Part shown: positions 16,243 through 25,235 of the stretch, piece after piece
Layout of the letters: every line of letters begins with the position of its first letter
Numbering within the stretch: position 1 is the first letter of the stretch
The notes under the pieces: generated by a model
Database searches by the model: none
The model's input: the letters and a program-made list of their open reading frames with translations, nothing else
Told to the model about the DNA's origin: nothing
Assembly (NCBI GenBank): GCA_947459425.1
Contig: CANHDJ010000003.1
Location: 62,001 to 126,000, forward strand
DNA: 64,000 bases
DNA from: Ignavibacteria bacterium
GTDB taxonomy: Bacteria > Bacteroidota > Ignavibacteria > Kapaibacteriales > UBA4661
Direction: 5' to 3'
Translations under genes and position numbers: made by a program

Positions 16243-17310
16243 TTATTGTTTCTTCAACGTGCCGTCCGCTCCGATAATAAGCGGTGTTGCGGGAAAATCT
16301 TCTCTCGTGAGGTCGCGCACAAGCGTGATTGCTTGCTTTTCAGCATCATAAACCGGAATGCCCGGTGCAAGTTGCACAACGGGAATAATTTTTCCACCAA
16401 GAAACTTGCCGGAAGTCTCATCAATACTTGCTTCCAAGACACACGTAACGCCGCTTACGCCTTTAACGTTAATATTGCCGTAGGTGAGAAAATTTCCCAG
16501 CGAGTAGGCAATAAGGCGGTCTTGGTAGAGTTCCATCGCACGAAGAACGTGCGGTCCATGCCCAATTACCATATCAGCACCTGCATCAATAGCGGCGTGA
16601 GCGAAGCGCACGAGATTTCCGCGATTTTCACCATAAAACATTTCGGTTCTGTCTTTGACGTGCATCGCATTTTTGCCTTCCGCGCCGCCGTGAAACGATA
16701 CCAACACACGGTCGAAGCGCTTTTTGACATCGCGTATGACGCTTTGCGTTGTGGCAATATCGGAGATATTGTAGGACGTTTCCGAAAAACCGAAGGCGAC
16801 AATCGCACAGCGTTTATTTTTGACCGTAAGTTCGGCAAAACCCTTTTTGGGTGCGGGTTGTATGCCTTGCTCACGAATGGTTTGTTTGGTTAATTCGGCG
16901 GCTTGTGCGCCGTAATCGTCGGCATGGTTGTTGTCAACGCTCATCACCGTAAAACCAAGATTTTTCAGTGTGGGCGCAAGCGTAAGCGGTACGCCAAATT
17001 CAAAGCAAACGCCCTTTTTGCGGGATGCTTCGGCACATTTTTGTGGTTTCATTCCTTCGCGGACAAAGGCAGCTTCAAAATTGCCGAATGTAATGTCTGC
17101 GCCACGCAGATACGCGCCAATCGAATCCACAAAGATTTGCCCTTGCTGTGGCGGAATGAATGTCTGTGGTGTCAAGGAGCCAAGCAGAACGTCGCCGACA
17201 GCCTTGATGCGAATTTGTGCGGTCAAAGGCAAAAAAGTACAAAGAAGAAGAGTTAGTGCGCTCAGGGTACGTTTTGTCATAATGTGTTGAAATTGAGGTG
17301 ATGAATTCAT
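16243..17310 (-). CDS. CapA-family (PgsA-like) metallophosphatase-fold protein, secreted
   Basis: About 355 residues. After an N-terminal signal-like segment (MTKRTLSALTLLLCTFLPL) come the CapA motifs: VGDVLLGS, the Asn-Asn-His of SVDNNHADDYG, SFHGGAEG and IGHGPHVLRAMELY. CapA proteins are tied to poly-gamma-glutamate capsule synthesis and other surface-polymer functions, with a calcineurin-like fold. The start at 17310 overlaps the kinase stop as ATGA, which favours translational coupling; the ATG at 17280 would give a cleaner signal peptide. Its place beside the glycosyltransferase-deacetylase gene supports a role in the surface polymer. Confidence 0.82.
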   Translation of the reverse strand: MNSSPQFQHIMTKRTLSALTLLLCTFLPLTAQIRIKAVGDVLLGSLTPQTFIPPQQGQIFVDSIGAYLRGADITFGNFEAAFVREGMKPQKCAEASRKKGVCFEFGVPLTLAPTLKNLGFTVMSVDNNHADDYGAQAAELTKQTIREQGIQPAPKKGFAELTVKNKRCAIVAFGFSETSYNISDIATTQSVIRDVKKRFDRVLVSFHGGAEGKNAMHVKDRTEMFYGENRGNLVRFAHAAIDAGADMVIGHGPHVLRAMELYQDRLIAYSLGNFLTYGNINVKGVSGVTCVLEASIDETSGKFLGGKIIPVVQLAPGIPVYDAEKQAITLVRDLTREDFPATPLIIGADGTLKKQ

Positions 17311-19943
17311 TTGACCGATTCGGACTTCGACGCAGGGACGGCGTTATTTTTCACTGGCTCAAGAGGCAAGACCATCACAAACTTCGAGCCAACACCCACT
17401 TCAGACTCACACCAAATCGTGCCTTGCATACTTTCGACCAGCTTTTTAACAATGGATAATCCCAAGCCCGTCGAGTCTTCATCGGCAGTTGGGCGTGTGG
17501 AAAGTCGTGAAAATTTTCCGAAGAGTCGCGGCATTTCCTCTGGCGGGATTCCCTGCCCTTCGTCTTGAACGATAATCACCGCAAGCGGTTCACTGCGAAA
17601 TTCCGCCACCTGTTTTACACCAAAGCGTTGGGCGGTATCACGAGAATCTGTCGCATCTGCCGCCGTCGTCGGTGATTGATAGGTATCCACCGTAATATGA
17701 ACCGCTTTTCCGCGAGGCGAGTATTTAACAGCATTGGACACAAGATTGTCAGCCACTTGCATCATCATTTGCTCATCGGCAATCGCAAATACGGGATTAT
17801 CATTGTAGAAAAACAAGCGAATGTCTTTCTGCGCGGCACGGTTTTGATAATTGCTGATGGTCTGCCCCATCACAAAACTCACATCCAACACGCCAAGAGC
17901 CGGGATCACGCCGCCACGCTCAATCGCATTGACATCCAGCAAATTGCGAACAAGACGGTTCATTCGGTCAGCATTTTGGACAATAAGGCGTATCATCGCA
18001 GCGCGTCGGTCTTCCGGCACGGTGCTGTCAGTACTCAAAATTTCTGCCAGCCCTTGAATTGAAGCAATTGGATTCTTCAAATCATGGGAGACAATGCCCA
18101 GAAGCTCGCTTCGTTCCTCGCTCAAAATACGTAATTCATTATTCCGTTCTTGCAATTCCGTATTGAGCATTTCCGTTTCGACAGTCTGTTCCTCAAGAAG
18201 ATACTGCTGGCGGAGAAGTTCTGCATTCATGGCTTGAAGTTCGTAATTCGCGGATTCAATGGCTTTTTGCTTTTCCTCTACTGCCTTTTTTTGTTCGGAG
18301 ATGGACTCATTGGCGAACAACAGTTCTCGGTGCGCGACTTCTAAGACGAGTTTTTGATAGGATAGTTCGTCGTGCTGTCCCGAAATTTCTTGGTTTCGGC
18401 GCATCACTTCGGCATGAGATCGCTCAAGTTCTTGATTACGGCGCTCTGCATCGCGTGTCTGCTCTTCTAAAAGGTGTTGCTGTGCAATGAGTGATTCATT
18501 CACTTGTTGTAATTCCAAATTCGCCGATTCGATAAAAAGTGTTTGGTCTTCCAGAAGGAGCTTTTGTGCGGCAATTTCACTATTGGCGCGTTGTAACTCT
18601 TCATTCTTTTCATGCTCTGCCAGGCTCTCCTGCTCAATACGACGAGCGTTCTCCGATTCTCGCATGAGGTTGTTTTGAAGCAAACGAATACGGTCAGCAA
18701 GGGCAAACGAGAACAAGAGCAACTGCAACACAAATCCCACGGCCGTTCCATAATATGCGCCATAGCCGAGTGTTATCACGTTCAAATTCGCAAGCATTTT
18801 CACGACCATACTCGCCAAAAATATGAACGTAGCAGCCAAGAAATATCGCCCGGCGACCTCTTTTTGTCGGATGCTTTGCACTGCACTCATCGTAATAACG
18901 CCCGTTGCTGCCAATCCCACAACGCCCGAAATCGGAAAAATTACTGCTCCCAAAGATTCCGCCCAAAAGCCTGCTCCGAGGGCAATCCCACCCAAAGCAA
19001 TACTGAGAAACGCCAAGCCAGTGTTGATGCGCCAAAGACGAGGCTGAGAGGTTTTGAGCAGCAGAAACTCTGATGTAAAGAATGCCAAATATGCTCCGGC
19101 AATATTGGGCAGAATCATTACAGAAAGCGGGGGAATGCGGGGTGCTACATTGGGAAAAATTTCATAATACAGCAGGGAATCGAATACTAGCGCATGGATA
19201 CTAAAAAAAAGGATATAGAGCAGGTAAAACCCTGTCGCTTGGTCGCGTAAACGCAAATACAAAAAGAAATTATAGAGGCTGAGTGCAAGCACGATTCCAA
19301 CAAATATCCCGTAAATAAATTTTTCTTTCTGGATATGAAATTGTATTTGCGTCTCAGTCATAATTGCAGGCTCGTTCGAGAAAATCCATTTTCCTGAAAA
19401 CCGCATTAAAACAAGTGTTTCTGTGCCAACAGGTAAACGAAATGCTGCCGAACGCCACGCTATATCACGCGCCCCTATTGGAACGCCATTCCCCGATACT
19501 GAGTGCCGCCACTCGCCGCTTGGCATTTGCACAAAGCACTCGACCGAATCGGTGTATGATGTTGGCAGAAACAGAAGAAACCACTTCCGCGCAAGACTAT
19601 CCTGCAAATGAAAACGCATCCAGTAGGCAGACGATGTAAAACCAAAGTTTATACGATTCGTTTGGAGTTGTTTCATCGAAAAGAAGTTTTTTTGTTCGCC
19701 CAGAATATCGTTCAACGAGCGTTGTCCCGTGCTGTCGCAGAAAATCTCAATGCCAGAGGCAATGCGCTGAAACGTCTTTTCGGTTGAGACATACCGAAGG
19801 CTTGTCCACGCCGGATTTTGTGCTTCAGCACTTTGAAGACCGAGAAAAATAAGGGCAAGCACTATGAATCCATAACGCCAAACGATGGACAAACTTCGGT
19901 GGGAAGAGTCCGCTATTGCTGCCCAAACTTGCTTTAACGACAT
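17307..19943 (-). CDS. 7TMR-DISM histidine kinase with long coiled-coil linker
   Basis: An 878-residue membrane kinase. A signal/TM segment (ends ...SAEAQ) and an extracytoplasmic beta-rich 7TMR-DISM extracellular domain (about 45-200) are followed by seven TM helices (about 205-425). Then comes ~170 residues of coiled coil built of repeating units such as LLEDQT, LLEEQT and YLLEEQT. The HisKA box IVSHDLKNPIASIQG has its His near 618. The ATPase domain has N-box NLVSNAVKYS, QGIPPEEMPRLF and GLGLSIVKKL. 7TMR-DISM receptors often bind carbohydrates or other ligands. It is coupled by ATGA to the CapA gene; no response regulator is adjacent. The repeated linker may set signalling register. Confidence 0.9.
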   Translation of the reverse strand: MSLKQVWAAIADSSHRSLSIVWRYGFIVLALIFLGLQSAEAQNPAWTSLRYVSTEKTFQRIASGIEIFCDSTGQRSLNDILGEQKNFFSMKQLQTNRINFGFTSSAYWMRFHLQDSLARKWFLLFLPTSYTDSVECFVQMPSGEWRHSVSGNGVPIGARDIAWRSAAFRLPVGTETLVLMRFSGKWIFSNEPAIMTETQIQFHIQKEKFIYGIFVGIVLALSLYNFFLYLRLRDQATGFYLLYILFFSIHALVFDSLLYYEIFPNVAPRIPPLSVMILPNIAGAYLAFFTSEFLLLKTSQPRLWRINTGLAFLSIALGGIALGAGFWAESLGAVIFPISGVVGLAATGVITMSAVQSIRQKEVAGRYFLAATFIFLASMVVKMLANLNVITLGYGAYYGTAVGFVLQLLLFSFALADRIRLLQNNLMRESENARRIEQESLAEHEKNEELQRANSEIAAQKLLLEDQTLFIESANLELQQVNESLIAQQHLLEEQTRDAERRNQELERSHAEVMRRNQEISGQHDELSYQKLVLEVAHRELLFANESISEQKKAVEEKQKAIESANYELQAMNAELLRQQYLLEEQTVETEMLNTELQERNNELRILSEERSELLGIVSHDLKNPIASIQGLAEILSTDSTVPEDRRAAMIRLIVQNADRMNRLVRNLLDVNAIERGGVIPALGVLDVSFVMGQTISNYQNRAAQKDIRLFFYNDNPVFAIADEQMMMQVADNLVSNAVKYSPRGKAVHITVDTYQSPTTAADATDSRDTAQRFGVKQVAEFRSEPLAVIIVQDEGQGIPPEEMPRLFGKFSRLSTRPTADEDSTGLGLSIVKKLVESMQGTIWCESEVGVGSKFVMVLPLEPVKNNAVPASKSESVK

Positions 19944-20176: not shown

Positions 20177-20536
20177 TTTTTTACCGCCAACCGCCCCCAA
20201 GCGCACGGTAGAGGTTCACCAGTGCGAGACGCTGACGTTTTTGCACCGTCACAAGTTCGATTTGCGATTGCAAGGAATTTTGTTGTGCCAAAAGCACTTC
20301 AAAGTAGGTCGCTTTTGCTGTTTTGTACAATTCCGTCGCAACGCCGACCGACCCTTGAAGCACTTGGACTTGCTGAGTTTTTAGGGTGTTAATTTGTTGT
20401 AGGTTTTGAATATTGGAAAGTTCGTTCACGACTTCCACATATCCATTGACAATGCTTTTTTGGTAACGATAGAGCGCTTGAAGTTGGTTCGATTTTGCCG
20501 CAGAGAACTGTGCTTCCAGTCCTTGCCAGTTGATAA
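20177..20536 (-). pseudogene. Truncated duplicate of the 3' end of the OprM-type efflux gene
   Basis: These 360 bp match 24876-25235 base for base with 11 differences (~97%) and no indel, at a constant offset of 4,699 bp. They encode only the last ~118 residues of the RND outer-membrane channel, including the intact stop codon. The first in-frame ATG (MEVVNELSNIQ) would give an 85-residue product lacking the barrel and signal. Identity stops exactly at GTTGATAA (20536), where a MITE-like terminal repeat begins. It is non-functional as a channel. The copy is in the same orientation as the intact gene. Confidence 0.85.
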
Positions 20537-20723
20537 AATGATTTCAGTTGGAAAGGCAACATGAGTCATCGGAGAAGCAAGGTTTAATGCGATCTTGAAA
20601 TCACGGTTTTTTAACCCCATGCGTCGTTTAACGATAAGAGTAAAATGCTAAAAGCCGCTTTATTGCTTAGTTATTGCGATATTTTAGTGCCATTATCGTT
20701 TCCAACTAAAATCATTTAGAACC
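20537..20723. mobile_element. MITE-like element 2 abutting the truncated OprM copy
   Basis: The terminal inverted repeats are AAATGATTTCAGTTGGAAA (20536-20554) and its partner 20699-20717, with one mismatch in 19. The right end continues to GAACC (20719-20723) and matches both ends of element 1 at 3031-3295. The left end lacks the outer GGTTCT, being joined directly to the broken OprM copy. The interior differs from element 1 and has no coding capacity. Confidence 0.65.
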
Positions 20724-20766
20724 CACTCCAAAGCTATCCCTTCGCACCAATAAATTGAATCAAGTG

Positions 20767-21507
20767 CTATTTTATAGCATGACTTTTTGATGGTATGCTA
20801 CCGATAGCCTCTTTTACGTCTCCATAGATGTTGAGGACGAAGATTTTCTGGACAGGATGACTTGTTGAAATAATTGCCTGTGAATGCAAATACCCAATTT
20901 GCGATTGACTGGGTATTGTTTCGGCTGTGATGGTCAGACGTTGGTGAGACTTGATTTTCCGATCTCCATGGCAACGAATAGTCATTCCCTGTTTTGCTTG
21001 CACACCCGTAATTTCAATTGCTTTATCAGTCGTATTGAGGAGCGAAATAGAGCCAGAAGCCCGCTTGCCGACAACCATTAGTGGTAGAGCAATGAAATGA
21101 GCAGATGGCTGTAATGGCTTGATAATATCGGCAATCAGTGAGACTGTTTCTGTGGATGTCGGGGCAGAATTGCTCTCAATAGTGACGGTTTTGTTCATTA
21201 CACCGAACGCACCTGTACTCACAGCAAGAGTAATATTCAAATACGTTGTTTCCCCTGGTCTGAGTGCCGATTTCTCAATCGGTGCACTCGTACAGCCACA
21301 GGCGGGGCGAACTGCGTGAATGAGTAATTGCTGATTTCCCGCGTTTTTGATGCCAATTTTTGCGGTCAATGTTGTATCGGTTTGGTGAATTCTTCCCCAA
21401 TCATAACGATTGCCGCCGACAACGGTGAGATGCGCTTGCGCGTAGGCTTGCAAAACCTGTACAACACTCAAAGCCAGCAAAAGCAGGGCAATTTGGAAGT
21501 ATTTCAT
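20767..21507 (-). CDS. DUF1573-family periplasmic protein
   Basis: A 246-residue protein from the ATG at 21507 (an ATG at 21543 is less likely). The signal peptide MKYFQIALLLLALSVVQVLQ ends near AYAQ. Two Ig-like/ASH beta-sandwich repeats follow. The first has the DUF1573 pattern FxWGxI-like YDWGRIHQTDT, KNAGNQQLLIHAV and the paired cysteines of RPACGCTS. DUF1573 proteins are common in Bacteroidota and are exported; their function is not established. A terminator (21560-21586) separates it from the operon upstream, so it is probably transcribed alone. Confidence 0.75.
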   Translation of the reverse strand: MKYFQIALLLLALSVVQVLQAYAQAHLTVVGGNRYDWGRIHQTDTTLTAKIGIKNAGNQQLLIHAVRPACGCTSAPIEKSALRPGETTYLNITLAVSTGAFGVMNKTVTIESNSAPTSTETVSLIADIIKPLQPSAHFIALPLMVVGKRASGSISLLNTTDKAIEITGVQAKQGMTIRCHGDRKIKSHQRLTITAETIPSQSQIGYLHSQAIISTSHPVQKIFVLNIYGDVKEAIGSIPSKSHAIK

Positions 21508-21559
21508 GGTTGCTATGGTCGTAGTGTGAAAATGTATCGTCATTGCAAGTGCTTAAAAG

Positions 21560-21586
21560 AAGAGCGCGAAGGTTTTTCGCGCTCTT
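21560..21586 (-). terminator. Intrinsic terminator after the three-gene envelope operon
   Basis: A perfect 11-bp stem AAGAGCGCGAA / TTCGCGCTCTT with a 5-nt loop. On the minus strand it is followed by CTTTTAA. It lies 45 bp past the stop codon of the beta-barrel gene at 21631. Confidence 0.8.
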
Positions 21587-21630
21587 TGAGTGTATTGATT
21601 GATACGGAACAGCACGGGGCTTTATGTAGA

Positions 21631-22236
21631 TTAAAATAGGCGAATACCTGTGCGCAGCTGCACAACGGCACCTGCAGCACTACTGACTGTGCTATTTACA
21701 TCGGTGGGCATCAAAAAATTATGCTGATATCCGCCACGCAAACCAAGCATAATACGGCTTTCAGGAATAAATGCCTCGCCGCCAATCCCAAGCATGACCT
21801 GCGCATTGGTTGTGCCGCCTCCGGTAGCAACGTGAAAATTATATGAGCCAAATCCGATTGCGGGTGAAATTCTGAAAATCTCATTGTCGAAAATAGAATA
21901 GCCAAACCAAAACTGCATACCGATTGTTTTCAAACTACTCCTTTGATTTGATAAGGAAGTCACAAAGGGCGAAACAGTAAATTGAATCTCACACGAGAGA
22001 TGATTCCAATAGTTGTACCAGCCTAGATTAAGACTTCCCAGTATTTCGGGAGCATTGAAAAACCTTCCCCCCTTCTCAATGTCTGGGCTTACCAAATGCC
22101 CACTTGATATATCGCCGTTGATAGAGATAAACGAGCCTCGTTGAGTATTCTGCGCAAAGCTGTAATTTGAAACAACACTGACCAGAATGATGATAGCAAG
22201 CAAAAGGTTCTTGTTGATGTTATATGTTATGCGCAT
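21631..22236 (-). CDS. Outer-membrane beta-barrel protein, unknown function
   Basis: 201 residues from the ATG at 22236, which opens MRITYNINKNLLLAIIILVS and ends a signal peptide at ...YSFAQ. The mature part alternates short amphipathic strands (LNLGWYNYWNHL, MQFWFGYSIF, IMLGLRGGYQHNF) and ends in ...LRTGIRLF with a terminal Phe, as in 8- to 10-stranded outer-membrane barrels. It is the last gene of a three-gene unit ended by a terminator. I do not recognise the family; a porin-like or OmpW/OprF-like barrel is possible. Codons are richer in A+T than in the neighbouring housekeeping genes. Confidence 0.65.
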   Translation of the reverse strand: MRITYNINKNLLLAIIILVSVVSNYSFAQNTQRGSFISINGDISSGHLVSPDIEKGGRFFNAPEILGSLNLGWYNYWNHLSCEIQFTVSPFVTSLSNQRSSLKTIGMQFWFGYSIFDNEIFRISPAIGFGSYNFHVATGGGTTNAQVMLGIGGEAFIPESRIMLGLRGGYQHNFLMPTDVNSTVSSAAGAVVQLRTGIRLF

Positions 22237-22279
22237 ATCGAAGTTTTGAAAAAGTGAAAAATTATAGATTTTTTGTACC

Positions 22280-22609
22280 TCATTTTTTGTGCGTAGTTGC
22301 TGATGAATCGGCATAGCGGATTGCTGTGCCAACAGCAGTACGTGTGTGCGGTTGATAAGTGATTCGTATCACGGCATTGGCATTAATCTCTTGAGCTTTC
22401 TTTTGCAACTCCTCATGAATATCTGCAAACGATATCCCGATTGCCCAGATAATACCAAGCTCAATGTGATTACGATTGCTTTCTCCAGTAGTGAGTTGAA
22501 CAGGTAATGAGCTTGTCCAAGGCGTAAAGACTGATTTCGCTGGCGCAACACACGAAGTGATACTAAACAATAATATCAAAACCGCAATACTTTTTATTGA
22601 TTTATCCAT
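22280..22609 (-). CDS. Small lipoprotein with YbjQ/RcsF-like domain
   Basis: A 109-residue protein beginning MDKSIKSIAVLILLFSITSC with a lipobox Cys at residue 20. The mature part has ~85 residues. The stretch AQEINANAVIRITYQ followed by AVGTAIRY resembles the alpha-beta fold of YbjQ- and RcsF-type proteins, where A-x-x-x-GANAV...GTA is typical; this is a resemblance judged by eye. It lies 34 bp after the upstream lipoprotein gene and 43 bp before the barrel gene on the same strand, so the three are likely co-transcribed. Function unknown. Confidence 0.6.
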   Translation of the reverse strand: MDKSIKSIAVLILLFSITSCVAPAKSVFTPWTSSLPVQLTTGESNRNHIELGIIWAIGISFADIHEELQKKAQEINANAVIRITYQPHTRTAVGTAIRYADSSATTHKK

Positions 22610-22643
22610 AGAGAATAGAGGTCAAAATGAGAAAGAGAAGCTA

Positions 22644-23483
22644 TTATTGACTACAATCACCGCATATACCACAATAAGCACTTGCCATGCAGCCAGCTGC
22701 CGCTGTCGCACACAGGGCTATTTGCCAAGGAGTTGCGGTTGCAAGTATGCCCAATGTAGCAACATCCAAAACACCAAAAGCAGCCAAACATAGGAAAAAA
22801 CCAGAGACACAGCCAGCTTCGGCAATCACCATCAAGCCCCATTGCCACCACCAAAAACAGGCTTGGAGAGACGCTGCTTGCTTATTTAACTCTTTTCCTG
22901 TGTACATTGCTCTAAGTTCATTAACCTTTGCAGGCATCTCTGTTTTGGCAATTCTATCAAGGGTAATATCAATATTTTGTGTATTCATATCTTTACACGT
23001 TGCACAGGCAGGAAGATATTTGTCGCGTGTTTTTTGAATCAGATCTCGCTTTGAAGAAAACTTCGTCTGCCAACGCAGCATTGCAGATGCTCGCTGTTCA
23101 TTCATAGTTTTAAATTCGCTATCGCTGATATTCAAAGCCTTGAGTATAGCTTTACCATCTTTGGTTTCCATAGCATACCGAAGCTCTGCGCGATTGGTCG
23201 TTGCAGCCAACTTCATCTTTACATAAATTGACCGACTACTCTCAATCAAAAATTGTGTATCTGGATCATCTGCTAATTCTGTTGCTAAAGCCTGTTCTTC
23301 AGCCGTTGGCTCTAGCTGCGAAATTTGCTGTGCGGATTTGCCTGATGTTTGATTTTCCACAGGCGCGGAGCCTGTTATTACCTGTTGTGCCGCTTCCTGA
23401 CACGCTGTCAATACTATCAAACTAAACAGAAATGCTGCCATCGCCTTAAATGGGCGAGATGTGTACATTTTTTGGAGGGACAT
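22644..23483 (-). CDS. Lipoprotein with Cys-rich hydrophobic C-terminal tail, bacteriocin-like
   Basis: 279 residues from the ATG at 23483, preceded on the minus strand by AAGGAAT about 9 nt upstream. The lipobox is VLTAC (Cys 28). The middle ~150 residues are charged and helical (for example YVKMKLAATTNRAELRY) and contain a CxxC (ACATC). The last ~70 residues change character: eight Cys in a very hydrophobic Gly/Ala/Trp-rich sequence beginning ACFWWWQWGLMV and ending YCGICGDCSQ. This looks like a membrane-active or disulfide-rich peptide module attached to a lipoprotein. It recalls annotated fulvocin C-related lipoproteins of Bacteroidota, but I cannot confirm homology. Confidence 0.6.
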   Translation of the reverse strand: MSLQKMYTSRPFKAMAAFLFSLIVLTACQEAAQQVITGSAPVENQTSGKSAQQISQLEPTAEEQALATELADDPDTQFLIESSRSIYVKMKLAATTNRAELRYAMETKDGKAILKALNISDSEFKTMNEQRASAMLRWQTKFSSKRDLIQKTRDKYLPACATCKDMNTQNIDITLDRIAKTEMPAKVNELRAMYTGKELNKQAASLQACFWWWQWGLMVIAEAGCVSGFFLCLAAFGVLDVATLGILATATPWQIALCATAAAGCMASAYCGICGDCSQ

Positions 23484-23591
23484 AACAATATTCCTTAAAA
23501 AAGGATAGAACAAAATGAATTGCCCCGTTCTCTCGCTTTCGGTATATTACGCCTCAGAAATGTCCCTCTTCCCGGATTGACTTTTCCTTGG

Positions 23592-23623
23592 GCAATCCCC
23601 GTTGCGAGTAGTGGCGGGGTTGC
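23592..23623. promoter_or_regulatory. Hairpin in the leader of the envelope operon
   Basis: GCAATCCCC (23592-23600) can pair with GGGGTTGC (23616-23623) with one bulged base. It lies between the LytTR-like repeats and the first gene, about 110 bp upstream of its start. It has no T run on the minus strand, so it may be a leader structure rather than a terminator. No known riboswitch motif was recognised. Confidence 0.35.
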
Positions 23624-23675
23624 TTGTTTTAAGCACGTAAAAATACATTCATATCCGTATTTCCGCAACTCCTTT

Positions 23676-23748
23676 GGTGCGAACTGCTCGTTTTTAGTTG
23701 CAAACTGTGAAACTTTGTTGTAAACTGCCTGTTTTTAGGTATGAACTG
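23676..23748 (-). promoter_or_regulatory. Four LytTR-like half-sites at 20-21 bp period
   Basis: On the minus strand, CAGTT(C/T)(A/G) occurs four times: GCAGTTCAT, GCAGTTTAC, ACAGTTTGC and GCAGTTCGC. The AACTG cores on the plus strand start at 23682, 23703, 23723 and 23744, spacings of 21, 20 and 21 bp, two helical turns. Each fits the published LytTR half-site pattern ([TA][AC][CA]GTTN[AG][TG], recalled from memory) at 7 or 8 of 9 positions. The array lies about 190-265 bp upstream of the lipoprotein gene start and just downstream of a LytTR regulator gene. Confidence 0.55.
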
Positions 23749-23812
23749 CACCTCTTTCTGCTAAGGGTACATCTCCTCTTTTCTATCCACTATCGCTTTT
23801 TTCATGTTGCTT

Positions 23813-24685
23813 TCAGGAAATATCGGTTGATTTATCCATTTTTTGTAAAAGCATTTTCAAGGATGTACGCCATTTGTTAATAAACTTCATTTTTGCTCGT
23901 GAGACAATAATCGGTTTTTCTGTCGCACGGTGCGTCAAAATCATAGTGCGATTGTTTTTGCTCACTTCTTTCACAAACCTCATATTTACAATAAATGAGC
24001 GATTTGGACGAAAGAATTCTGGCTGAGGTAGAAATTTCTCGTAGCTCTGAAGAAAAATACGCACCGTCATTGGCTGACCATTGCTGCGGTAAACAATCGT
24101 GTAGTTATTAGCTGCCTCAATACATATTATCTCCCTAAGCGGCAAAAATACCAAGCCATCATCCGTAGGCAAGCTAAATACATTATCTCTTAAAATAACG
24201 TCGGTAGCCTCCGTTTTGTCAACCATTTCTTCCATCTGGGGCTTGGGCGGTAGGCTATAAACAATCGACTGAGAATGATGAACGATCATCTCATCGCCGC
24301 CTATCGGTTTGTTCAAAACACGAAGGCGCATTTTCACAACATGGTGTAGCGTTGCCTTGAGTTCTTCAGGGTCGAAAGGCTTCCAAAGCATGGCAGATGC
24401 GCCATTTGCCAATGCTTCTTGTTGTAAAGGTACGTTAAATTCTTGCGCTGTCATACAAATAACACTGAATTCTGGATTGGAAAACGCCCGCAAAACATCA
24501 ACTCCATTTCCGCCTAATAGTATCATATCAAGTAGGACAATATCTGTCGGCGAGACCGAAAGTATCTGCTTTGCCTCATCTACGGAAGTACAAGTTGAAA
24601 AAGTCGCATGGGGCATGACACGGCGTAATATAGCAGCGAGAACTCGTTGGAAAGCGATATCATCTTCAACGATAAGAATACGCAT
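23813..24685 (-). CDS. LytTR-family response regulator (orphan)
   Basis: A 290-residue protein with an N-terminal receiver domain: acidic pair ED at 7-8, phospho-accepting Asp 53 in VLLDMILLGGNG, Thr in CMTAQ, and Lys in WKPFDPEE. A ~60-residue linker leads to a C-terminal LytTR DNA-binding domain (VFLPLREIICIEAANNYTIV, then FFRPNRSFIVNMRFVKEV). LytTR regulators bind paired direct repeats and often control bacteriocin, competence or virulence genes. No histidine kinase gene is adjacent. Four candidate LytTR half-sites lie directly downstream of this gene, upstream of the next operon. Confidence 0.92.
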   Translation of the reverse strand: MRILIVEDDIAFQRVLAAILRRVMPHATFSTCTSVDEAKQILSVSPTDIVLLDMILLGGNGVDVLRAFSNPEFSVICMTAQEFNVPLQQEALANGASAMLWKPFDPEELKATLHHVVKMRLRVLNKPIGGDEMIVHHSQSIVYSLPPKPQMEEMVDKTEATDVILRDNVFSLPTDDGLVFLPLREIICIEAANNYTIVYRSNGQPMTVRIFLQSYEKFLPQPEFFRPNRSFIVNMRFVKEVSKNNRTMILTHRATEKPIIVSRAKMKFINKWRTSLKMLLQKMDKSTDIS

Positions 24686-24826
24686 AGCAAGAAGTATTTT
24701 TTGATTGCAAAATGTACAATTACTATTTGGTGGGGCAGTGTGCGGAGCGTTACTCTGCGGAGCGATGCTTCAGATCAACTAAATTAGCCACGTATCTTCT
24801 CTCTTGTATCTCTCTGACCAAATAAT

Positions 24827-24867
24827 CCATTCTACCGCCCCCAAAGTAGGGTGAAGCGGTAGAATGG
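24827..24867 (-). terminator. Hairpin after the intact OprM-type gene
   Basis: A perfect 12-bp stem CCATTCTACCGC / GCGGTAGAATGG (24827-24838 with 24856-24867) with a 17-nt loop, 12 bp past the stop codon of the gene ending at 24880. It has only ATTATTT after it on the minus strand, so it is terminator-like. Confidence 0.6.
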
Positions 24868-24875
24868 AGGGATGC

Positions 24876-25235
24876 TTTTTTACCGCCAACCGCCCCCAAG
24901 CGCACGGTAGAGGTTCACCAGTGCGAGACGCTGACGTTTTTGCACCGTCACAAGTTCGATTTGCGATTGTAACGAATTTTGTTGGGCAAAGAGGATTTCA
25001 AAGTAGGTCGCTTTTGCTGTTTTGTACAATTCCGTCGCAACGCCGACTGACCCTTGAAGAACTTGGACTTGCTGAGTTTTTAGGGTGTTGATTTGTTGTA
25101 GGTTTTGAATATTGGAAAGTTCGTTCACGACTTCCACATATCCATTGACAATGCTTTTTTGGTAACGATAGAGCGCTTGAAGTTGGTTCGATTTTGCAGC
25201 AGAGAACTGTGCTTCCAGTCCTTGCCAGTTGATAA
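24876..25235 (-). repeat. 360-bp direct repeat, copy within the intact OprM-type gene
   Basis: This is the partner of 20177-20536: same orientation, 11 mismatches, no indels. It covers the last ~118 codons of the intact gene and 4 bp beyond. The two copies flank 4,339 bp. Confidence 0.88.

Follow-up and report, generated by a model that had tools for sequence, protein, structure and literature searches.

A possibly mobile, probably LytTR-regulated lipoprotein cassette in an uncultured Kapabacteria genome and its likeness to bacteriocin operons

The locus described here raises the question of what is switched, and to what end, by an orphan LytTR response regulator encoded beside a cysteine-rich lipoprotein operon in an uncultured Kapabacteria genome. 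Analysis of the window (the whole stretch of 64,000 nucleotides) revealed a five-gene cassette, encoding the LytTR regulator, the Cys-rich lipoprotein, a small lipoprotein, a barrel and a DUF1573 protein, which forms a 4.34-kb insertion flanked by 360-bp repeats and has all its features on the minus strand. The elements listed by the initial annotation, namely the orphan LytTR gene, the four half-sites, the three operon genes and the terminator, were all recovered on re-analysis:

24876-25235, no strand: 360-bp flanking direct repeat, copy 1, inside an intact efflux outer-membrane factor gene
23813-24685, minus: orphan LytTR response regulator, 290 aa, with canonical receiver and LytTR DNA-binding domain
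23679-23749, minus: predicted LytTR operator of four direct half-sites, GCAGTTCAT (23741-23749), GCAGTTTAC (23720-23728), ACAGTTTGC (23700-23708) and GCAGTTCGC (23679-23687), spaced by 21/20/21 nt
23638-23668, minus: Bacteroidota-type promoter TTG-N20-TATTTTTA (TTG at 23668-23666, TATTTTTA at 23645-23638, TAnnTTTG-like), separated by 10 nt from the last half-site, which lies upstream
23484-23637, minus: 5' leader with P1-like hairpin GCAACCCCG/CGGGGaUUGC, pseudoknot unsupported
22644-23483, minus: Cys-rich lipoprotein, 279 aa, lipobox LTAC with C28, outside any Pfam or NCBIfam family
22280-22609, minus: small lipoprotein, 109 aa, lipobox SITSC, weakly YbjQ-like
21631-22236, minus: outer-membrane barrel, 201 aa, eight predicted strands, of OmpX/OmpA/NspA-like size
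21560-21586, minus: intrinsic-terminator-like hairpin ending the lipoprotein-barrel operon (11 bp, -17.4 kcal/mol, z -4.7)
20767-21543, minus: DUF1573 protein (PF07610, E=6.5e-20), a recurrent neighbour at related loci
20177-20536, no strand: 360-bp flanking direct repeat, copy 2, at the efflux gene 3' end

The two repeat copies are 96.9% identical over 360 bp, and the cassette may be mobile, since the corresponding site is empty in a relative (G002:C293). The DUF1573 gene is part of the same inserted segment as the lipoprotein-barrel operon and has homologues at related loci (G001:C13, G001:C256 and G002:C485). The hairpin closing the operon has a short T tract and was not listed on the minus strand by a generic terminator scan. 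A 7TM histidine kinase (17307-19943) was considered as a cassette partner and rejected, because it adjoins the efflux gene in the empty-site genome too.

Both domains of the regulator scored above the cut-off for LytTR response regulators (Response_reg PF00072, E=2e-16; LytTR PF04397, E=2.8e-17; Pfam), and its receiver possesses both the acceptor D53 and K102. Known LytTR direct repeats consist of 9 bp plus 12 bp, and in the HdrR/BrsR bacteriocin operons of Streptococcus mutans 9-bp direct repeats with ~12-bp spacing lie roughly 10 bp upstream of the promoter (PMC6193735). The window array likewise combines 9-bp direct repeats and ~12-bp spacers near a promoter. Its best tandem repeat was equalled by 1/200 shuffles, and the 3.4-Mb assembly contains the motif CAGTTYRY-N12/13-CAGTTYRY at four places (reversed control, 0), three of which overlap in the array; the fourth, at G000:C35:10564, is inside a leucine-rich-repeat (LRR) coding gene and was for that reason discarded as a second operator target. 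Period-21 repeats recur at eleven related promoters, the repeat sequence being particular to each locus. A TTG-N20- or N21-TAnnTTTG-like promoter occupies the equivalent position in related loci, and LytTR Pfam matches lie upstream at eleven of them. Being 10 nt from the promoter, unique in the genome and laid out in this recurrent manner, the array is very likely, as judged from sequence, a LytTR operator. The proposal that the regulator switches the operon is strengthened by the conserved operator geometry and the genome-unique array, and control by the cassette's own LytTR protein is a well-supported prediction. The cassette resembles the HdrR/BrsR operons in its type of regulator, repeat geometry, promoter distance and dedicated output operon, but differs in its Kapabacteria host, promoter type, number of half-sites (four) and lipoprotein-barrel output. 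It falls outside the LytTR regulatory systems (LRS), since the inhibitory membrane protein partner co-encoded in those systems is absent from it and neither operator nor repeat pair was found upstream of the regulator gene start (24685), where LRS autoregulation would place one.

The main output, the Cys-rich lipoprotein, carries a lipobox cysteine at residue 28 that is retained in 4/5 copies, followed by a predicted helical domain (~61-156), a CxxC motif (160/163) and, at the C-terminus, a predicted hydrophobic hairpin of two helices; eight cysteines lie within the last 71 residues. For this tail, initially proposed as a possible toxin-like or membrane-inserting module, structure prediction returned the hydrophobic hairpin with moderate confidence, and no structural or family match accompanied it, as neither the fold search with the lipoprotein model nor the Pfam/NCBIfam search with five lipoprotein tails gave any hit. 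In hydrophobicity (GRAVY about 1), its eight cysteines and little net charge the tail resembles neighbouring bacteriocin cores; alignments to the double-glycine bacteriocin cores, made to test for homology, were not consistently significant beyond composition. In relatives of the lipoprotein the signal peptide is conserved (61-82%) and ten cysteines are retained, but the body drops to 14-28%, a pattern reminiscent of bacteriocin precursors. Their occurrence is patchy (4/61 genomes, with several divergent copies inside one genome), and none were found outside the genus or in viral contigs.

The small lipoprotein resembles YbjQ_1 below the cut-off (E=0.025), and its homologue was detected only in the closest relative (G002), while the barrel family is present at the other related loci. 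The co-occurrence expected of the three operon genes therefore holds in the genus for the lipoprotein and barrel, which are conserved together with DUF1573, and for the small lipoprotein extends only to the closest relative. Eight strands are predicted after the barrel's signal peptide, as in OmpX/OmpA-like barrels, and its model, of moderate confidence, best matched Ail, NspA and OmpA among PDB entries (E 7.5e-5 to 6e-4). The suggestion that it is an export partner is disfavoured, because an eight-strand barrel of OmpX/OmpA size is too narrow to act as a channel for exporting proteins; judging from the model, immunity or another envelope role appears likelier.

The connection to bacteriocins, initially drawn from LytTR regulators in general, finds support in related LytTR operons with recognised bacteriocin/RiPP precursors. 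There are also operons for double-glycine bacteriocin precursors (TIGR01847) that begin with the arrangement of regulator, promoter and leader RNA seen in the lipoprotein relatives; the single operon of this kind whose sequence extends far enough downstream encodes a C39-peptidase ABC exporter. Outside the window, the relatives' leaders constitute a new RNA family (15 copies, with covariation) in which a pseudoknot is formed between a hairpin loop and a segment 21-28 nt before the start codon, a pairing matched by 0-8/300 shuffles. In the window leader the pseudoknot was not found: 111/300 shuffles were as good, and the position was wrong. The same RNA precedes double-glycine bacteriocin precursors and pinensin-type lanthipeptide precursors (NF038180), mostly in LytTR operons. 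H-type pseudoknots of the preQ1-II/SAM-II type have a loop that pairs 5' of the ribosome-binding site, with hairpins inserted in the long loop; the relatives' RNA shares this layout, its hairpin loop pairing just upstream of that site and its long loop carrying inserted hairpins, but it has no match in Rfam 15, is lineage-restricted and is located before secreted-peptide genes, sometimes inside operons. Order-level matches of model R1 and weak matches of model R2 (L095, L098, L099, L101 and L102) were inspected, put down to chance and discarded. A search of the available literature found no report of such a leader RNA or such a system.

The lipoprotein relatives have in common with these same-genus bacteriocins the pseudoknot leader, the LytTR-operator-promoter design, or both, together with a conserved leader or signal followed by a variable Cys-rich hydrophobic core. 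The window protein differs in its lipoprotein signal and length (279 aa), and belongs to neither recognised class: the cassette contains neither the GG leader nor the C39-peptidase exporter expected of double-glycine class II, and no NCBIfam match (NF038180 leader, lanthionine synthetase) places the protein among pinensin-type precursors, nor are modification enzymes encoded with the window copy.

The explanation that we tentatively prefer, at a little short of an even chance, is a mobile, self-regulated (LytTR-switched) cassette for interbacterial antagonism with the Cys-rich helical hairpin as effector, a probable weapon against other bacteria because its nearest relatives have their switch in common with bacteriocin genes, along with a folded RNA not described before. 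The activated regulator would bind two tandem direct-repeat pairs and turn on transcription of the operon, yielding a lipid-anchored, probably disulfide-rich lipoprotein whose hairpin might act on membranes, either while displayed on the surface or once released. The producer envelope would be protected by the small barrel and the small lipoprotein, perhaps with the lipoprotein's own helical domain. Toxicity of the lipoprotein is an inferred property. The canonical receiver of a regulator lacking an adjacent kinase counts against this explanation, as do the tail's lack of a family, fold or consistent alignment match and the absence of GG leader, C39 exporter, modification enzymes and pseudoknot leader from the window copy.

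A LytTR-controlled envelope-maintenance or stress cassette, with a structural or redox/metal-binding Cys-rich lipoprotein whose co-expressed partners, the barrel and the YbjQ-like lipoprotein, are further components of the envelope, is unlikely but deserves some weight. The lipobox proteins, the OmpX-like barrel and the recurrent DUF1573 partner would suit it, as would the CxxC and clustered cysteines, which could bind metal, and no toxin hallmark occurs within the window; however, a hypervariable body under a conserved signal peptide, multiple divergent copies, patchiness, insertion as a mobile element and a regulatory layout shared with bacteriocin operons are all unusual for housekeeping envelope proteins.

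The halocin C8 proprotein is a large precursor with a Cys-rich hydrophobic peptide at its C-terminus. A precursor of this kind, combining immunity in its N-terminal domain with a Cys-rich hydrophobic bacteriocin that proteolysis frees from the C-terminus, would be a special form of the antagonism explanation, and an improbable one: the order of parts and the ten conserved cysteines agree with it, but the Pfam/NCBIfam searches with the tails gave no sequence match, the window protein is lipid-anchored rather than a secreted precursor, bacterial, and set among other neighbours, and no protease was identified. Production and immunity from one gene are documented for halocin C8 itself, according to Sun et al. 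2005 as cited in PMC12893001. Less probable still is surface display or signalling, in which the tail would be processed to a peptide pheromone or to a recognition module that neighbours sense, with the regulator as response arm, as in LytTR quorum systems. LytTR regulators are classical pheromone response regulators, and the dedicated operator, the self-contained regulator-output unit and the diversified C-terminus would fit; against this, the cassette has no histidine-kinase receptor and, with no operator 5' of the regulator gene, no visible positive feedback.

Beyond the antagonism explanation for this cassette, it is conceivable, though rather doubtful, that Kapabacteria possess a conflict system built of modules: LytTR regulators, interchangeable and each with its own operator, would drive pseudoknot-headed operons whose secreted effectors can be swapped (double-glycine bacteriocins, lanthipeptides and a new class of lipid-anchored disulfide-rich hairpin toxins, the window lipoprotein among them as a mobile cassette). 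These findings connect an uncharacterised lipoprotein family of an uncultured lineage with regulation of the bacteriocin type. The relatives' structured leader RNA is common to unrelated secreted-peptide genes, and a post-transcriptional layer of bacteriocin expression is therefore directly testable. The related loci also offer a series of regulator-operator pairs ready for testing the diversification of LytTR specificity; the assembly itself holds seven LytTR genes, the cassette regulator among them.

The layout proposed in the initial annotation, namely a regulator, an intergenic region, two lipoproteins, a barrel and a terminator, was borne out on the minus strand between 24685 and 21560, where a LytTR response regulator gene is followed by a 329-nt intergenic region, three genes and a terminator hairpin:

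lipoprotein, 279 aa, minus strand, first gene after the 329-nt intergenic region
small lipoprotein, 109 aa, minus strand, second gene
barrel protein, 201 aa, minus strand, third gene, followed by the terminator hairpin

The regulator combines a canonical receiver (PF00072, E=2e-16; D53 and K102 present) with a LytTR domain (PF04397, E=2.8e-17). Family profile searches gave no family above cut-off for the other three proteins, the small lipoprotein showing a weak resemblance to YbjQ (E=0.025). The model of the barrel shows eight strands, with Ail, NspA and OmpA as top PDB matches. Elsewhere in this genome (L005, G000:C26), a 430-aa protein encoded next to a histidine kinase ends in a LytTR domain and has an N-terminal part resembling a sensor.

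Of 61 related genomes, four have lipoprotein relatives (the genome of the window counted), all of the same genus; named records among the relatives are the MAGs JAAFHM010000141.1 (Ignavibacteria bacterium) and JALONG010000116.1 (Candidatus Kapaibacterium). Genome G001 carries at least three copies. The co-occurrence in other genomes, whose absence was to speak against the proposed system, was found, since lipoprotein and barrel genes are neighbours at every sufficiently complete locus and a DUF1573 gene is present at four (the window, G002:C485, G001:C13 and G001:C256). It did not extend to the small lipoprotein, present only in the window and G002:C485.

The cassette is flanked by 360-bp direct repeats (20177-20536 and 24876-25235, 96.9%), which correspond to the 3' end of an efflux outer-membrane factor gene. 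Contig G002:C293 (L110) represents the empty site: the efflux gene (window 26141-24878) leads straight into the region preceding the histidine kinase (window 20534-17001), with a 356-bp overlap in single copy. The window therefore contains a 4.34-kb insertion (20537-24875), whose recognised genes are those for DUF1573, the barrel, both lipoproteins and the regulator, with no integrase among them. It may have moved, as one possibility, through a circular intermediate recombining by homology.

Lipoprotein paralogues share 67-82% identity in the first 33 residues versus 14-28% in the remainder; for the closest orthologue the values are 61 and 65%, respectively. Ten cysteines (160, 163, 209, 225, 232, 258, 265, 271, 274 and 277) are retained wherever the stretch is present, except that one copy has a gap at 232; the alignment program may somewhat favour such a count by aligning cysteines. 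The AlphaFold model, built from three input sequences (pLDDT 62.7), shows residues 61-156 as a helical domain (pLDDT about 80-86), followed by a C-terminal hydrophobic two-helix hairpin (212-235 and 252-274, pLDDT about 70), and has no match in the PDB. One paralogue (L016, G001:C44, 15647-16304) has tyrosine for the lipobox cysteine (LSAYQE).

Known LytTR operators are 9-bp direct repeats with about 12 bp between them, frequently located 10 bp ahead of the -35 element (PMC6193735). The window array shares with them the 9-nt direct repeats and the 10-nt distance to a promoter element: four minus-strand half-sites, GCAGTTCAT, GCAGTTTAC, ACAGTTTGC and GCAGTTCGC (starts 23749, 23728, 23708 and 23687; spacing 21/20/21 nt), end exactly 10 nt before a TTG; N20 separates this TTG from TATTTTTA, which resembles a TAnnTTTG box. 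The paired half-site pattern recurs only once in the host assembly, inside an LRR coding gene. Direct repeats with a period of exactly 21 and promoters of the TTG-N20 type (one N21) were found at eight further promoters of the genus, upstream of a leader RNA described below, and like repeats with a promoter at three additional loci (G007:C61, G005:C6 and G005:C81), preceding MauE genes at the first two; no such repeats were found in the stretches examined at G002:C126 and G009:C29. These related loci independently support the reading of the window array as a LytTR operator, and the conserved architecture makes it quite probable that the LytTR protein controls the lipoprotein-barrel operon. Repeat sequences vary between loci (e.g. 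GGACACTT, GGGCGTGTGGTT, ACGGTTCACAC, GACCGTTCATT), which gives the impression of a dedicated site for each regulator.

At loci outside the window, the relatives' leaders are conserved and structured, forming a pseudoknot family without a credible match in Rfam 15. Two covariance models, one built from five leaders and the other from eleven, yielded fifteen copies across 123 genomes from the order; every copy belongs to one of two genera, both in the window's family. In every copy, the loop of hairpin P1 carries a UCUGCYC-like stretch pairing with a segment that ends 21-28 nt before the start codon. The best loop pairing is this pseudoknot in 14/14 leaders examined (for G004:C23, after an automatic shift in the choice of P1), and 0-8 of 300 shuffles do as well. 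With hand-registered arms, compensatory changes affect 8/8 positions of P1 (51 cells) and 4/9 of the pseudoknot (17 cells), cell counts reached by none of 2000 shuffles, although they lean towards structure because arms registered by hand favour pairing and related sequences do not count as independent; covariation is also visible without hand registration. A P1-like hairpin (-12.4 kcal/mol, z -2.0) occupies the corresponding position at the start of the window leader. A pseudoknot is unsupported there (111/300 shuffles as good, wrong distance) and neither covariance model detects this leader, so the leader RNA is not claimed for the window. At L094 (G006:C44:40316-40463) a decayed copy lies where the peptide gene is absent and the downstream neighbour gene retained.

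Genes downstream of the leader RNA
Four loci: Cys lipoproteins
G002:C123: another small lipoprotein
G004:C23: hydrophobic 73-mer with signal peptide; same-family barrels further downstream
G001:C486 and G001:C262 (second short ORF past the RNA): pinensin-type lanthipeptide precursors, above the NF038180 cut-off
G005:C6 and G002:C126: bacteriocin precursors, above the TIGR01847 cut-off
G007:C61, G009:C29, G004:C53 and G005:C81: further GG-type peptides

The G005:C6 operon also encodes a C39-peptidase ABC exporter. Copies upstream of short secreted genes are L014, L015, L016, L017, L083-L091 and L096. Association with bacteriocin operons, the conserved-signal/variable-core pattern and mobility tentatively suggest that the module could belong to interbacterial conflict; the Cys hairpin would then be the toxic part and the barrel or small lipoprotein would confer immunity.

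LytTR genes lie upstream at eleven leader-RNA loci. None was seen near G001:C262, the only one at G005:C81 looks broken, and contig ends truncate the loci G002:C468, where the expected place has no start codon, and G001:C486. At G007:C61, G005:C6, G002:C126 and G009:C29, at least one MauE gene separates LytTR from the RNA, which is thus an intra-operon element; this position argues for control at the level of translation or stability rather than attenuation at the promoter. At L090, L089 and L091, one to three MauE/DoxX-like genes are chained between the LytTR gene and a double-glycine peptide gene, the latter followed at L090 by thioredoxin-like and C39 ABC genes.
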